The notes below the pieces were generated by a model. That model saw only the letters and a program-made list of their open reading frames with translations, ran no database searches and had not been told where the DNA came from. Shown piece after piece: positions 2,906-60,951 of a stretch of DNA of 64,000 bases. Origin of the DNA: Anaerolineae bacterium. Lineage in GTDB: Bacteria > Chloroflexota > Anaerolineae > Promineifilales > Promineifilaceae. Location of the stretch: positions 248,001 to 312,000 of the forward strand of contig JAMLHW010000002.1 of assembly GCA_023954475.1 (NCBI GenBank), written 5' to 3'. How positions within the stretch are numbered: the stretch's first letter is position 1; the number at the start of each line of letters is the position of its first letter. Both the position numbers and the translations under genes were made by a program.

Positions 2906-4162
2906 TCAGGCGATCTTAGGTGTCGTTGGGACAGATTGAGCTTCGGCTTTGCTGGTTTCAGCTACTGACTCATGCTCAACAACACGGAAGTAACGTACGC
3001 CGATGCTGAACGCGAGCAAGCCATACGCAATCACACCTGCTCCGGCGGCAAACTCGATCAAAGACGGAAAATAATGCGTGTAGAGCGGCTCCAATACATG
3101 CGGCAGGTGGCTCACAACTACCAACTGGCCTACCAGATTGGTGTCCCAGCGATAAGCGACCACACCACCAATGATGAGTAGCAATGCCAGCGTCTGAAAT
3201 GCGCGTCGGCTGCGGAACGGTGGCAACAGCAGCAAGACGATTGGCACAACAATGCCCAGCACAATTTCACCAATCCAGAAGTTGAACGCCAGTGGGCCAC
3301 CGGTCAACATTTGCATTGCTTCGCTGCGTGCCGGCGCATAGGTATAACTCACGGAAAGCATGTCCCAGAAGCGCATGTATAAATAGACAACCAACGCCCA
3401 TCCGATAAAGCGTGCTACTTTGTCCAGCACGGTGCGGTCAACGATGGCACGGCTGGAAAAGCGCGCCGCTGCAATCGAAAGAAACGTCGTCAGCGCCAAA
3501 CCGCCCACTATCGCTGAAATCATAAATAGTACCGCGAGGCCAGGCTGATACCAGACAGGACGCGCTTTGAGAATGCCGTAGGTTGCGCCAAGTGATGATT
3601 GATGCAGCATTGACAAGCCCAGCCCAATGACGGCCAGAACAGGAGCAAGTTTATGCACCTGCAGCATGCTGCCCGATACACGCGGCCAACGGCTCTGCAA
3701 CCAGTCGGCACGCCCCACAACCGGGATGACCTCGAGTGACAGAACCATGAAATATAAACCGACGCACATTGTGACTTCCCACAGCGGTGAGTGGATGTTC
3801 CAGTAGGCAAATCCGTGCCAGAAGCGATCTGGTCGGCCGATATCGAGCAGCAACATCATACAGGCCATACTGTAACCGATTAAGCCGACGTAAACGGCGG
3901 TGCGTGCCACACCTTTGTACTGTTTTGATCCCAGCAAATAAACGGCTGCAGACAGCGTGAAGGCTCCGGCACTGAGGGCAACAGCCGACAAATCAATCGT
4001 AATCCACAGACCCCATGGAACCAGGTCGGTCAAATTGGTCACAACCAAGCCGCGCGTGAAGACAAAGAAGGCGGCTACAAGGCCAATGACGATGACTGTA
4101 AGCAAGAACAATGTCCACCAGAAAAACGGTTGGCGCAAGAAGGATAAACGTCTGTGCTGCAT
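2906..4162 (-). CDS. nrfD: NrfD/PsrC/HybB-family integral membrane quinone-interacting subunit
   Basis: A 418-aa polytopic membrane protein with about ten hydrophobic helices, the size and organisation of NrfD/PsrC/HybB anchors that exchange electrons with (mena)quinone. Family-like signatures include VPWGLWITIDL near the first helices, GRPDRFWHG after the third and FWIGEIVLG late in the chain. It lies 2 nt downstream of the 4Fe-4S subunit gene, which sits behind an octaheme cytochrome. The probable route is quinol pool, NrfD, ferredoxin subunit and cytochrome c, or the reverse. No molybdopterin catalytic subunit is encoded nearby, so the terminal reaction is unknown. Confidence 0.88.
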   Translation of the reverse strand: MQHRRLSFLRQPFFWWTLFLLTVIVIGLVAAFFVFTRGLVVTNLTDLVPWGLWITIDLSAVALSAGAFTLSAAVYLLGSKQYKGVARTAVYVGLIGYSMACMMLLLDIGRPDRFWHGFAYWNIHSPLWEVTMCVGLYFMVLSLEVIPVVGRADWLQSRWPRVSGSMLQVHKLAPVLAVIGLGLSMLHQSSLGATYGILKARPVWYQPGLAVLFMISAIVGGLALTTFLSIAAARFSSRAIVDRTVLDKVARFIGWALVVYLYMRFWDMLSVSYTYAPARSEAMQMLTGGPLAFNFWIGEIVLGIVVPIVLLLLPPFRSRRAFQTLALLLIIGGVVAYRWDTNLVGQLVVVSHLPHVLEPLYTHYFPSLIEFAAGAGVIAYGLLAFSIGVRYFRVVEHESVAETSKAEAQSVPTTPKIA

Positions 4163-4164
4163 GG

Positions 4165-4968
4165 TTACGCCTCCGGAACAGCGGCTTCATCAGCCGGTAA
4201 ATAGTAAACGCGTGTTTCAGTACCTAATTCTTCGCGCAAGCGATAAGACGAATGAGTTGCCAGGGCTTTGCTGACGGGTGACTCGGGGTCGTTTAGGTCG
4301 CCAAAAATGCGAGCTTTGGTCGGGCAAGCCACGACACATGCCGGCGTTGCCATCTGGTCCACACCCGGTGTCAGACCGAAGGCAAGACCGCGGTCAATGC
4401 GTTCGTAGCAGAACGAACACTTTTCCACAACACCACGCGGGCGGCGTGGAATATCAGGTTGACCCCACTCCGGCACCGCAGGATTGTCGTCTGTGTAGAC
4501 TTCCCAATTGAATTTGCGCGCGTCATACGGGCATGCAATCTGGCAGTAACGGCAGCCAATACACCGATCGTAATCAATGGTTACGATACCGTCAGGCCGG
4601 ATGTGGTTGGCTTTAACCGGGCAGACATCGACGCAAGGTGCGTTTTGGCACTGCTGACATGGTATGGGCATGAAAACCGGTCGGTCGCCGACTGTACCGG
4701 CTTCTTCGATCCGCGTCCAGGCCATATCCGGTGCAACATCATTGTGTGCGCTACAAGCCATGACGCAGCGATCGCATCCGGTACATTTCGATTGGTCGAT
4801 GACCATCGCCCAGCGATGGTTGGACTGCTCTGGTGAGTGAGATTTCGTTTCGGCCGAATTGGGTTTTTCGGCCGAATAGCCTTTGACACCGACGCCAACG
4901 GCAGCCACGGCCAGCGTGGCACTGCCCCACTTCAAAAACGAACGGCGATCCATCTTCGTTGTATTCAT
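4165..4968 (-). CDS. Tat-exported four-cluster ferredoxin subunit (NrfC/HybA/DsrO-like)
   Basis: A 267-aa iron-sulfur electron-transfer protein. The N-terminus carries a twin-arginine signal (DRRSFLKWG) followed by a hydrophobic stretch, so it is expected outside the cytoplasmic membrane. Four Cys groups fit four [4Fe-4S] clusters: CTGCDRCVMAC, CQQCQNAPCVDVCP, CIGCRYCQIACP and CSFCYER with CVVACP further on. This spacing is typical of NrfC/HybA/DmsB-type subunits that bridge an NrfD-like anchor and a periplasmic redox partner. It starts 15 nt after the cytochrome gene and ends 2 nt before the NrfD gene, so the three are almost certainly co-transcribed and co-assembled. Confidence 0.93.
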   Translation of the reverse strand: MNTTKMDRRSFLKWGSATLAVAAVGVGVKGYSAEKPNSAETKSHSPEQSNHRWAMVIDQSKCTGCDRCVMACSAHNDVAPDMAWTRIEEAGTVGDRPVFMPIPCQQCQNAPCVDVCPVKANHIRPDGIVTIDYDRCIGCRYCQIACPYDARKFNWEVYTDDNPAVPEWGQPDIPRRPRGVVEKCSFCYERIDRGLAFGLTPGVDQMATPACVVACPTKARIFGDLNDPESPVSKALATHSSYRLREELGTETRVYYLPADEAAVPEA

Positions 4969-4983
4969 CGTCTATCACCTCAT

Positions 4984-5907
4984 CTATGCCCGATTGCGAC
5001 GTTGGGTAATGAAAGAAACGATAGGGTTGAGCAGCAAACCGATTACCAGTGCCATGCCGGCTGGAATCAAAAACGCCAACGGACTGGACTCAGGCGGTGT
5101 AGTTGACAACTGTGAACCAGATGAAACTGTATCATCGCCTGCTTGAATTAAATGAGAATCCGGCTGATAACAGACCGGCGATGTGCGCTCAGCAACCGCA
5201 GTCATGACTGCACCTGCGGTGTGCATGTCATGTTCATGACAACTGTTGCAAGTTTCCATATCAACTGCAAATGTATGAGGCCGTGAACCGTGACCCTCGC
5301 CAAGCACAGTCGTCGCGACCTGCAGATGGCAATCAGTACAGATCATACCTTCAGCTGCATGGCTGGTCTGTGCAAAGATAGCGACTTGGTCCTCGTGGCA
5401 TGTCTCACATAATGCCTGCGTGCTGCCATAGCGAATGTCCGTTGTGTGCGGATTATGGCATTGATTGCACGTCAAATCTTCTTTGCTGTGCTGACTGGCT
5501 TCCCATTCATCGTGGGTGTCGAGATGACATGTGCCGCAAAGGCGTGATGATATATTTGTGGGTATATAGTTATCGGGATGGTTGTCGGGAACCGGATTGT
5601 GACAAGTAGTACAACCGACGCCCGGCACGACAAATTCGCCTGTTTCCACGTCAAAACCGGTCGTGTGGCAGCTCAAGCAAGCCGGATCACTGTCGTTTTC
5701 CTGCCACGCTTCCTGGAATACGCTATCGGCATAAGCATTGGCATGCTCGCTATGATCCCAGTAATCGCGTAAACCTTCATGACACCCGACACATTCGATT
5801 GAGCCCGCCTCCGTTACCGGGTCCTGGGCGGCAATCGGCCGAACGCCCATCAACAACAATACCAGACCACTACCAACTAAAATAATCTGTAAGATGCGAA
5901 GCCTCAT
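4984..5907 (-). CDS. Octaheme c-type cytochrome with C-terminal membrane anchor
   Basis: A 307-aa exported multiheme cytochrome, first gene of the minus-strand respiratory operon. Eight CxxCH motifs are visible in order: CVGCH, CLSCH, CTTCH, CGTCH, CNQCH, CETCH, CTDCH and CNSCH. A signal peptide covers about residues 1-28, and a hydrophobic C-terminal helix (LAFLIPAGMALVIGLLL) followed by Arg/Lys probably anchors it. The start at 5907 is preceded by AAAGGAG at proper spacing; an upstream start at 5937 lacks one. The heme pattern recalls cytochrome c-554/NrfH-like donors and reductases, but the active site of NrfA or octaheme reductases (CxxCK) is not seen, so an electron-transfer role is the safer reading. 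Confidence 0.9.
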   Translation of the reverse strand: MRLRILQIILVGSGLVLLLMGVRPIAAQDPVTEAGSIECVGCHEGLRDYWDHSEHANAYADSVFQEAWQENDSDPACLSCHTTGFDVETGEFVVPGVGCTTCHNPVPDNHPDNYIPTNISSRLCGTCHLDTHDEWEASQHSKEDLTCNQCHNPHTTDIRYGSTQALCETCHEDQVAIFAQTSHAAEGMICTDCHLQVATTVLGEGHGSRPHTFAVDMETCNSCHEHDMHTAGAVMTAVAERTSPVCYQPDSHLIQAGDDTVSSGSQLSTTPPESSPLAFLIPAGMALVIGLLLNPIVSFITQRRNRA

Positions 5908-6295
5908 TGCAGACTCCTTTGGTTTGAGGCGGCACAAAAGACTGAGCCGCCGTGCTTCATTGCATTAAATCATGTCTATGGTAACAAATGCGGCACCGGC
6001 AACGCATCGGGCGTGAAACGCATGTCTGTGTGGGGGGAAATCCGGGTTTGATATGGGGTCAACCAGTCGCCGTTGTGCAAAAAGGATGCCGTATTCGCAC
6101 TTTATGCACCGATTTTCTGCTAATTATCACCACGACATCGACTCCGTATAGCCATTTTCGGCCGAATTACCCCATGCAGAAATGGGGTAATGACCCAATA
6201 GATTCGGCCGATTGCGCCTGCTACACTACAGTCAAACCATTTTCCAGCCAGGTCACTAGCGTTCTAGGGATACGGACCAGGCACTGGAGGCTACG
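5908..6295. other. Intergenic region between divergent units, with hairpin and palindrome copies
   Basis: No convincing gene is seen here; the only open frame is short and lacks a ribosome site. It must carry the promoter of the cytochrome operon (minus) and of the 46-aa gene (plus). It holds a perfect inverted repeat at 6166-6191 and two copies of the iterated palindrome (6158, 6204). Confidence 0.6.
6166..6191. repeat. Perfect 10-bp inverted repeat (hairpin)
   Basis: ATTACCCCAT and ATGGGGTAAT flank a 6-nt loop. There is no T-run after it on either strand, so it is a weak candidate for an intrinsic terminator and could equally be an operator or an mRNA hairpin. A palindrome copy (TTCGGCCGAA) touches its left arm. 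Confidence 0.55.
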
Positions 6296-12402: not shown

Positions 12403-13221
12403 ATGCTGTTTCGCGATTACCCGGTCGTCGTGCGCGGTGGCGGCGATTTAGCTACCGGCGTCGTCTATCGTTTACATACCGCCGGTTTTCCCGTCATCGT
12501 TCTTGAATTGGCGCAGCCACTGGTCGTGCGCCGCATGGTGGCCGTCGCCACAGCAATCGTCCAAGGTACGGTGCATATTGAGTCGTTGACTGCAATGCGC
12601 GTTGAGTCGACCGCTGCAGCCGAACAGCTCGCTTGCACCGGGTCTATTCCGGTGCTTGTCGCACCACAATTGCCTGATTTCGGCCGAAAACCTACCATCA
12701 TCATTGACGCCCGAATGGCCAAACGCAACATCGACACAACCATCCACGATGCGCCACTGGTCATAGCGCTCGGGCCTGGCTTTGAGGCAGGTGCCGACTG
12801 CCACGCCGTGGTTGAAACGATGCGCGGACATGCGCTGGGACGCGTTCTCTGGGGCGGCTCAGCATTGCCCAACACCGGTACGCCCGGCATCGTCGCGGGA
12901 AAAGGTGTCGAGCGTGTTCTGCGTGCGCCGACCGAAGGGGGTGTAACGTGGCAAATTGCCATCGGCGACACAGTCCATGACGGCCAGCGACTCGGCCAGG
13001 TAGCGAATACAGTGGTTGTTGCGCCGTTTGCAGGTGTCGTTCGCGGCTTGATCGCGCCGGGAACGACGGTACACGGCGGTATGAAGATCGGGGACATCGA
13101 CGCCCGCGCCGATGCTGCTGCGTGTTTCACGATTTCGGACAAGGCGCTGGCAATTGGTGGCGGCGTTCTGGAGGCTGTCCTAACGTGGTTGAATCGGCCG
13201 AAAACCGCCCCAACCCCATAG
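12403..13221 (+). CDS. yqeB: YqeB-family selenium-dependent molybdenum hydroxylase accessory protein
   Basis: A 272-aa protein of the YqeB/EF2563 family, which is found with selenium-dependent molybdenum hydroxylases and thought to help make or insert their labile selenium cofactor. Recognisable features are the N-terminal VVRGGGDLATGVVYRLH, VLELAQPLVVRR, the middle ALGPGFEAGADCHAVVET, NTGTPG and the C-terminal lipoyl/biotinyl-like hammerhead VVAPFAGVVRGLI. The full expected length is present. It overlaps yqeC by 37 nt. No molybdenum hydroxylase is encoded within this window, so its client lies elsewhere. Confidence 0.88.
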   Translation: MLFRDYPVVVRGGGDLATGVVYRLHTAGFPVIVLELAQPLVVRRMVAVATAIVQGTVHIESLTAMRVESTAAAEQLACTGSIPVLVAPQLPDFGRKPTIIIDARMAKRNIDTTIHDAPLVIALGPGFEAGADCHAVVETMRGHALGRVLWGGSALPNTGTPGIVAGKGVERVLRAPTEGGVTWQIAIGDTVHDGQRLGQVANTVVVAPFAGVVRGLIAPGTTVHGGMKIGDIDARADAAACFTISDKALAIGGGVLEAVLTWLNRPKTAPTP

Positions 13222-13967
13222 ACGCCTTTGAACTGCGCAGCGGCACAGTCGCTGCCCTGGTCGGTGCCGGCGGCAAATCGAGCTTGATGTTCGCGCTGGG
13301 TCGCGATTTGCGCAGCAGCGGCATGACCAGCATCCTCACGACGACGACACGTCTGTGGGCATGGCAGAAAAACAATGCCGCTCATGTCTGCCGCTGGCCG
13401 GACGACACCGGCAGGCTGCCCACCACTCTCTCACAGTTCCGCTCGTGCCTGCTTGTCGGCGCCACGGTCGATGACAAAGTATCCGGCATCCCGCCGGAAA
13501 CGGTCGCAATACTGGCATCACAGCGTTTTGCCGATGTCATGCTGGTTGAAGCCGACGGCGCACGTGGCATGGCAATCAAGGCACCTGCCGCACATGAGCC
13601 GGCAATCCCACCTGGTACAATGACAGTCATCGTCGTCGTCAGTATCACAGCATTGGAAGGGTCAATCGAAGCAGTTGCATTTCGGCCGAAGTTGGTTTCC
13701 AAAGTCACAGATTATTTACTACACGAAATACTGACTCCTGAATCGGTTGCGCACCTACTTGCGCATAAAGACGGAGGTCAGAAGAATGTGCCTGCAAATG
13801 CAGATGTATTGGCGTTTATCAACCAAATCACGACTGCAGAACAACGAACACGGGCAGATTCTTTGGCAAACTATCTTCTGCAAACAAACCAGTTCAAACG
13901 CGTTATATTGGGCAACACACGCATGCCTAATCCGGTACTTGCCGTGTGTGAATGTCCTCCCGCGTGA
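13185..13967 (+). CDS. yqeC: YqeC-family putative selenium cofactor biosynthesis protein
   Basis: A 260-aa P-loop protein of the YqeC family that accompanies YqeB. The N-terminus has VGAGGKSSLM as an ATP-binding loop, then TTTTRLW, VEADGARGMAIKAPAAHEPAIP and a C-terminal NQITTAEQR region typical of the family. The start is assigned to GTG 13185 because GGAGG lies 10 nt upstream inside yqeB; the longer frame back to 13122 is out-of-frame overlap with yqeB. The 37-nt overlap implies coupled translation and a joint function. Confidence 0.87.
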   Translation: MVESAENRPNPIDAFELRSGTVAALVGAGGKSSLMFALGRDLRSSGMTSILTTTTRLWAWQKNNAAHVCRWPDDTGRLPTTLSQFRSCLLVGATVDDKVSGIPPETVAILASQRFADVMLVEADGARGMAIKAPAAHEPAIPPGTMTVIVVVSITALEGSIEAVAFRPKLVSKVTDYLLHEILTPESVAHLLAHKDGGQKNVPANADVLAFINQITTAEQRTRADSLANYLLQTNQFKRVILGNTRMPNPVLAVCECPPA

Positions 13968-59736: not shown

Positions 59737-59769
59737 GTCGTGACGCTATGATGTTATGAGGTGTACAAG

Positions 59770-60003
59770 ATGACAACTTTGACCAAAAGAACAACAATCT
59801 ACCTTGATCCTGAATTGCACCGCGCATTACGACTGAAATCGGCCGAAACGAACCGCTCCATTTCCGAATTGATCAACGAACTAGTCAAGATGGAAGTATC
59901 GGCCGATGAAGCCGATCTACGTGCCTTCCGCGAGCGAGTAGACGAGCCAACGATCAGCTATGAAGCGCTGCTGCAGGATTTGAAGGCGCATGGCAAAATA
60001 TGA
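59770..60003 (+). CDS. Ribbon-helix-helix antitoxin of a RelE-type pair
   Basis: A 77-aa protein. The N-terminal RHH region (TTIYLDPELHRALRLKSAETNRSISELINELV, read in parts) is a typical DNA-binding CopG/ParD-like fold; the acidic C-terminal tail (DEADLRAFRERVDEPTISYEALLQDL) is the expected toxin-neutralising part. GAGGTG precedes ATG 59770. It overlaps the toxin start by 14 nt and probably represses its own promoter. Confidence 0.9.
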   Translation: MTTLTKRTTIYLDPELHRALRLKSAETNRSISELINELVKMEVSADEADLRAFRERVDEPTISYEALLQDLKAHGKI

Positions 60004-60247
60004 GATCGTCTTTAAGGCGTCTGTTGCCAAGGATTTGCATTCCATTCCAAACCGCGATGTAGAACGCATTTTATCCCGGATAAGCCAGTTGGCGATTGAT
60101 CCGCGTCCACCGCAATCTATCAAACTGTCCGGCGAAGAAAAGTACCGTCTGCGACAAGGCAGTTACCGCATCCTCTATCAGATTGATGACCTGGTCATCA
60201 CTGTAACCGTTGTCAAAATCGGACATCGCCGCGACGTTTACCGTTGA
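59990..60247 (+). CDS. RelE/ParE-superfamily toxin
   Basis: An 85-aa basic protein of the RelE/ParE fold: KASVAKDLHSIPNRDVERIL, IKLSGEEKYRLRQGSYRILYQID and VVKIGHRRDVYR at the end, with conserved Arg and Lys and the usual final HRRDVY motif. Most members are ribosome-dependent mRNA endonucleases; a minority poison gyrase. It overlaps and follows the antitoxin gene. Confidence 0.92.
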   Translation: MAKYEIVFKASVAKDLHSIPNRDVERILSRISQLAIDPRPPQSIKLSGEEKYRLRQGSYRILYQIDDLVITVTVVKIGHRRDVYR

Positions 60248-60336: not shown

Positions 60337-60951
60337 ATGGAAATCAAACAATCTGTTCACCTAGACGTCTGGTCAGATTTTGCCTGACCGTGGTGCTTCC
60401 TCGTAGCCTCCAGTCTGGAGCAGCTCGCCGAAACACACGACTATACTTTGCGCTGGCGCTCGTATGAACTGCGTCCGGCCGGTGCGCCGCCCATGCCTCC
60501 GGAATACAAAGCCAAAATTCTCGCGGGTCGCCCGCGCTTCGAGGCGATGGCAAAGGAGCGCTACGGTGTCTCGATCAATCCGGGACCGTTCGGCTTCAAC
60601 AGCCGCCCTGCTCTGATTGGTGAGAAAATTGCCGAAAGCCAGAGCTTACTGCATGCGTATCACGATGCGGTGATGGCTGCATATTGGCAAAATGCGGTCG
60701 ATATCGGCCGAATCGAAAACCTGGCCGACATTGCTGAATCTGTTGGCATCAACCGCAATGATTTTCTGAATGCACTTTCGGCCGAAACATATGCAAAAGC
60801 CGTCGATCAGGACATTCTCTTTGCCCGCCAAAACGGACTTAACGGCGTCCCAGCACTTGTATTTGAAAATCGCTACCTCGTCTCTGGCGCACAATCGGCT
60901 GCGGCCCTGCGACAAGTCGTTGATGAGATTCTCGCAAATCCTTCAGTATAA
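60337..60951 (+). CDS. frnE: FrnE/DsbA-family oxidoreductase with predicted selenocysteine (UPWC)
   Basis: A DsbA-like thioredoxin-fold protein of 204 aa if the in-frame TGA at 60385-60387 is read as selenocysteine (residue 17). The N-terminus then reads VDVWSDFA-U-PWCF: the FrnE active-site CPWC with its first Cys replaced by Sec, the common UxxC selenoprotein pattern. Downstream, ELRPAGAPPMPPEYKAK, FNSRPALIGEK, FLNALSAETY and GVPALVFENRYLVSGAQ match FrnE and the cis-Pro loop. The ATG is 48 nt upstream of the TGA; there is no strong ribosome site. A conventional gene finder would start inside at 60448 and lose the active site. Alternatives are a nonsense mutation or sequencing error. Confidence 0.78.
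60385..60420 (+). promoter_or_regulatory. Candidate bacterial SECIS element after the in-frame TGA
   Basis: Immediately downstream of the TGA, CTCCA (60408-60412) and TGGAG (60416-60420) form a 5-bp stem around a GTC apical loop. The loop begins with G and lies 25 nt after the TGA, inside the 16-37 nt window of published bacterial SECIS models. An alternative pairing GCTTC/GGAGC is possible. Confidence 0.6.

Follow-up and report, generated by a model that had tools for sequence, protein, structure and literature searches.

The window (the whole 64-kb stretch of DNA that was analysed) carries on its forward strand a reading frame that runs from the ATG at 60337 to the TAA at 60949-60951 and is interrupted only by the TGA at 60385-60387. 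On read-through the frame gives 204 residues, with 187 open codons between the TGA and the TAA. The residue order about the TGA is MEIKQSVHLDVWSDFA-U-PWCFLVASSLEQ, the immediate context being VDVWSDFA-U-PWCF, and the active site of the read-through translation is U17-P-W-C20. The original prediction had described an ATG 60337 frame broken solely by this TGA, and its coordinates and VDVWSDFA/PWCF context proved exact. It had also held that routine tools would cut the gene short, which is indeed what happens, as standard ORF calling yields a 167-aa frame with TTG 60448 as its start. No clear Shine-Dalgarno sequence was seen ahead of ATG 60337, unlike in many homologues. The features considered are the following.

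60337-60951, + strand: coding sequence of a putative Sec-containing DsbA/FrnE-like thiol (selenol)-disulfide oxidoreductase, 204 residues with a UPWC active site (from the read-through translation, PF01323 and the FrnE match)
60385-60387, + strand: in-frame UGA, predicted to be read as selenocysteine, residue 17 (from TGA at the same codon in 15 further homologues and Cys codons in others)
60408-60420, + strand: candidate bacterial SECIS apical hairpin, stem 60408-60412 with 60416-60420 and loop GTC at 60413-60415 (from pairing and synonymous constraint)
12403-13221, + strand: yqeB (322 bits, NCBIfam cut-off 220)
13122-13967, + strand: yqeC (161 bits, NCBIfam cut-off 73)

Two other groups of genes were noted in the window. 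Directly upstream of the interrupted frame, at 59761-60247 (+), a ribbon-helix-helix antitoxin-like gene is followed by a gene for a ParE-family toxin (PF05016), making up a type II toxin-antitoxin pair. At 2906-5937 (-), genes for an NrfD/QrcD-like membrane protein, a DsrO-like iron-sulfur protein and a multihaem cytochrome form a probable respiratory complex operon.

Frames that are interrupted by a TGA, have a Cys two to three residues from it and stay open for 100 or more codons after it number 12 in the window, and the bare pattern is therefore not rare. The frame at 60337-60951 is set apart from it by a recognised domain. Its read-through protein matches Pfam DSBA (PF01323) at 104 bits (cut-off 25.6, 1.1e-29), in a domain search that covered this one of the 12 frames. 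The AlphaFold model, made on the homologue alignment, has a pLDDT of 94.1 and a pTM of 0.89. The best PDB matches by Foldseek are FrnE of D. radiodurans (5cnw, E 1e-14, TM 0.84) and S. coelicolor SCO1869, and the nearest PDB sequence is that of FrnE 5cp1 (3.9e-18). In the model the first helix spans 18-30 with residue 17 at its N-cap, the arrangement of thioredoxin folds. The invariant columns of the alignment include D14, residue 17, P18, C20, V171 and P172; the V171-P172 pair precedes a strand and is the usual cis-proline loop. Cys20, beside U17, is the sole cysteine of the 204-residue chain. No signal peptide is evident in the N-terminus, which points to a cytosolic role, and the protein probably acts there as a thiol/selenol-disulfide oxidoreductase.

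Homologues were sought in 59 relatives and then in the GTDB family (52 genomes). TGA occupies the same codon in 13 genomes (G024, G064, G001, G022, G026, G065, G002, G007, G013, G005, G073, G074 and G025), in a fragment from G075, and in G049, which belongs to another family of the same class. These 15 further UGA homologues (alignment A1) have 36-62% protein identity to the window's protein. A more distant set (L033, L034, L035, L038, L041, L043, L044 and L067) also has TGA at the Sec codon, and the remaining homologues carry TGC or TGT there, so that the column holds 24 UGA rows versus 16 Cys rows. Aligned homologues had been expected to show Cys at residue 17; they have either TGA or Cys at exactly that codon. 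Downstream of the TGA, dN/dS was 0.06-0.14 in all six pairs compared, and by this measure the downstream codons are under purifying selection. The codons ahead of the TGA are also conserved. Disabling mutations in sister genomes, which the original prediction had named as evidence that would count against it, were not seen. Frame counts place the second TGA in the L024 match span at the C-terminal end, as the natural stop, and the TAA in the L028 match span just before the ATG; both genes are unbroken. TGA also serves as the terminal stop in several homologues.

The gene neighbourhood is not shared, as none of five flanking window proteins has a counterpart next to the homologues. The UGA gene is thus not one recently copied segment, and its function is not inferable from an operon. 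In viral contigs a scan turned up a single weak fragment. No plasmid homologue reaches 60% identity, and those among the matches listed bear the annotation of ordinary proteins of the DsbA family.

The hairpin at 60408-60420 (CTCCA-GTC-TGGAG) has a 5-bp stem and a loop that opens with G (60413), 25 nt past the TGA. This geometry is as originally described, but the significance of the hairpin does not reside in the one sequence; conservation supplies it. Taken alone, the window's hairpin is not significant, in that 16% of synonymous shuffles produce a stem of 5 bp and a G in its loop (P 0.16), and the same shuffling gives weak single-sequence significance in most homologue rows. The homologues keep the hairpin at the same place, and one of its pairs is compensated. 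Across the 16-sequence alignment, 98.8% of cells in the five stem pairs are paired. The outer of the five is found as CG, UA, GU and UG, and its both-sides change, seen in three cells, was reached by none of 500 shuffles, which ignore relatedness. It is the one pair of the five to vary on both sides; three pairs are invariant and hence uninformative. Synonymous codon identity among 15 full-length sequences is 0.87 at codons +8 to +11, compared to 0.44 overall. These codons rank at the top of all 4-codon windows along the gene and coincide with the hairpin. The Rfam scan found nothing at the hairpin region. That TGA and hairpin are both conserved in the relatives places the pattern beyond chance, and the element has what is looked for in a bacterial SECIS, namely a conserved hairpin just downstream of the UGA with a G in a small apical loop. 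A different hairpin, closer to the UGA, is conserved in L033, L034, L035 and L038 as TCGGCC-AGGNNNG-GGTCGA (6-bp stem, AGGNNNG loop). It looks like a second SECIS design, as judged from four sequences with non-varying pairs.

The source genome (5.12 Mb in 26 contigs, 98% complete) was searched for selA, selB, selC and selD, the genes on which the original prediction had been made to depend, and all four are present. The tRNA-Sec scores 63 bits (cut-off 47) and has a TCA anticodon by ARAGORN. The selA gene (546 bits, cut-off 268) shares the window's contig and precedes the window by about 15 kb; selB scores 354 bits (cut-off 242) and selD 370 bits (cut-off 125). The selD gene (L018, G000:C12:502257-503192) has an in-frame TGA of its own, in CAG-U-ASKLGP. 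This is the Sec position of known Sec-containing SelD, and so Sec is the best reading of this further UGA of the genome too; the organism's SelD is itself probably a selenoprotein. SelD has been given as a UxxK selenoprotein (PMC13188914). The yqeB/yqeC pair is a second selenium trait of the genome. It had been put forward as agreeing with Sec insertion, and the two genes are indeed present above their cut-offs, but the agreement is circumstantial because they serve a separate selenium pathway, the maturation of the Se-dependent molybdenum cofactor. Within the family, selB was found in 44 of 52 genomes, and most genomes have Sec machinery with or without the UGA DsbA-like gene. Among the 22 carriers of the UGA gene, selA, selB and tRNA-Sec were all detected in 16, one or two of them in five, and none in one, an incomplete assembly (G075). 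Considering that nearly all genomes of the family have the machinery, its co-occurrence with the gene is consistent with Sec decoding and not discriminating.

Other explanations of the TGA were weighed against this evidence. Were it a real stop, the locus would be a decaying pseudogene, or translation would restart downstream, for example at TTG 60448, and the protein would be shorter and devoid of the active site. Standard ORF calling does propose such a 167-aa frame. Yet a start at TTG 60448 would drop the first strand along with the active site, the TGA is kept in 15 other genomes, the codons before it are conserved, dN/dS after it is low, and the frame 60337-60951 holds no further lesion. 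We regard a real stop as very improbable. An error of sequencing or assembly, by which a Cys codon (TGC or TGT) was misread as TGA, would accord with the Cys that other homologues have at residue 17. However, the 15 further assemblies have TGA at the same codon, accompanied by a conserved SECIS hairpin which is absent from the Cys form, and the probability of an error is practically negligible. Decoding of the TGA as another amino acid, such as Trp or Cys, through a change of code or a natural suppressor and with no SECIS, would provide the read-through that the frame requires. This is extremely unlikely in a genome with the full Sec machinery, given that several homologues terminate at TGA and that synonymous constraint marks a SECIS-like hairpin.

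Our preferred reading, as in the original prediction, is that 60337-60951 is a bacterial selenoprotein gene with Sec inserted at UGA 60385-60387. We hold this to be very likely on the strength of the machinery, the conserved TGA and hairpin, and the purifying selection. The actual insertion of Sec, the redox chemistry, the location and the substrates are what we infer from the sequence and the model. SelB loaded with Sec-tRNA(Sec) would bind the mRNA hairpin at 60408-60420, and selenocysteine would enter at UGA 60385-60387 in translation. The predicted product is a thioredoxin-fold protein of 204 residues and of the DsbA/FrnE type. Its active site would read Sec-Pro-Trp-Cys, with Sec17 where CPWC has its exposed nucleophilic Cys. 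Disulfides or oxidised substrates would be attacked by Sec17, and Cys20, beside the conserved Val-(cis)Pro loop, would be the resolving residue.

In the tree, 22 Sec rows and one Cys row are grouped (100/100), and the Sec row L067 stands among the Cys rows. The hairpin is missing from the Cys row L031 (TGT), which is nested in the close Sec clade (95/99). This row is best read as a Sec-to-Cys reversal, of which we are only moderately sure because its branch is long. The genome that holds L031 also has L067 (G031:C37:87491-88102), a separate second UGA DsbA-like gene on a branch that is otherwise Cys, possibly an independent gain of Sec. The SECIS designs in the family are the 5-bp stem with a GTY loop and the 6-bp stem with an AGGNNNG loop. 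We suggest, tentatively and at somewhat less than even chances, that in one bacterial family the Sec form is old and vertically kept, with at least two SECIS designs and one reversion to Cys accompanied by loss of the hairpin. If an old Sec form with Cys reversion holds true, the family could be used as a natural series for Sec/Cys exchange. The conserved Sec clade with its nested Cys form makes a matched set for testing the benefit of selenium in a DsbA/FrnE-type enzyme, one whose start and active site would be missed by routine annotation in the window's genome and in at least 15 relatives.

Among solved structures, FrnE of Deinococcus radiodurans (5cnw, 5cp1) is the best match by both sequence and fold, and the active-site context VDIWSDIACPWC is alike. 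The Deinococcus protein has about 260 residues and a Cys at the first position, whereas the window's protein has 204 and a Sec there. FrnE of D. radiodurans has a second redox cysteine pair besides CPWC. The window's protein has no cysteine outside the active site, and with Cys20 as the only cysteine such a second pair is impossible. The term "full-length FrnE", used in the original prediction, thus applies to the fold and the nearest solved structure, but not to the second cysteine pair. Another thioredoxin-fold UxxC selenoprotein is the DsbG-like NF041057 (Rcas_1661 family thioredoxin-like (seleno)lipoprotein); the window's protein is not a member of it, scoring 22 bits (cut-off 190).

Literature pairing "FrnE" with "selenoprotein" consisted of unrelated papers, the family having been published as DsbA-like. 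A "DsbA-like protein" (COG2761, UXXC, nine sequences) was among 15 new selenoprotein families from the Sargasso Sea metagenome in 2005 (PMC1088965), and four members were reported in bacterial genomes in 2006 (PMC1794560). DsbA-like appears with PF01323 and UxxC in selenoprotein lists of 2022 and 2026 (PMC9312934, PMC13188914), and the 2026 review describes the functions of these selenoproteins as largely uncharacterised (PMC13188914). The DsbA-like selenoprotein (form 1; COG2761/PF01323) shares with the window's protein the domain family and a UxxC with Sec first. As in the window gene, its bacterial SECIS follows closely and has a G in its small apical loop; the hairpin of the L033-L035/L038 group differs. 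The window gene comes from another lineage than the published DsbA-like selenoproteins, and was likened to them by the descriptions of domain, motif and SECIS. All testable features of the DsbA-like selenoprotein are found in the window gene, which therefore belongs to that published family and otherwise enlarges one known since 2005, with a mechanism that is also established.
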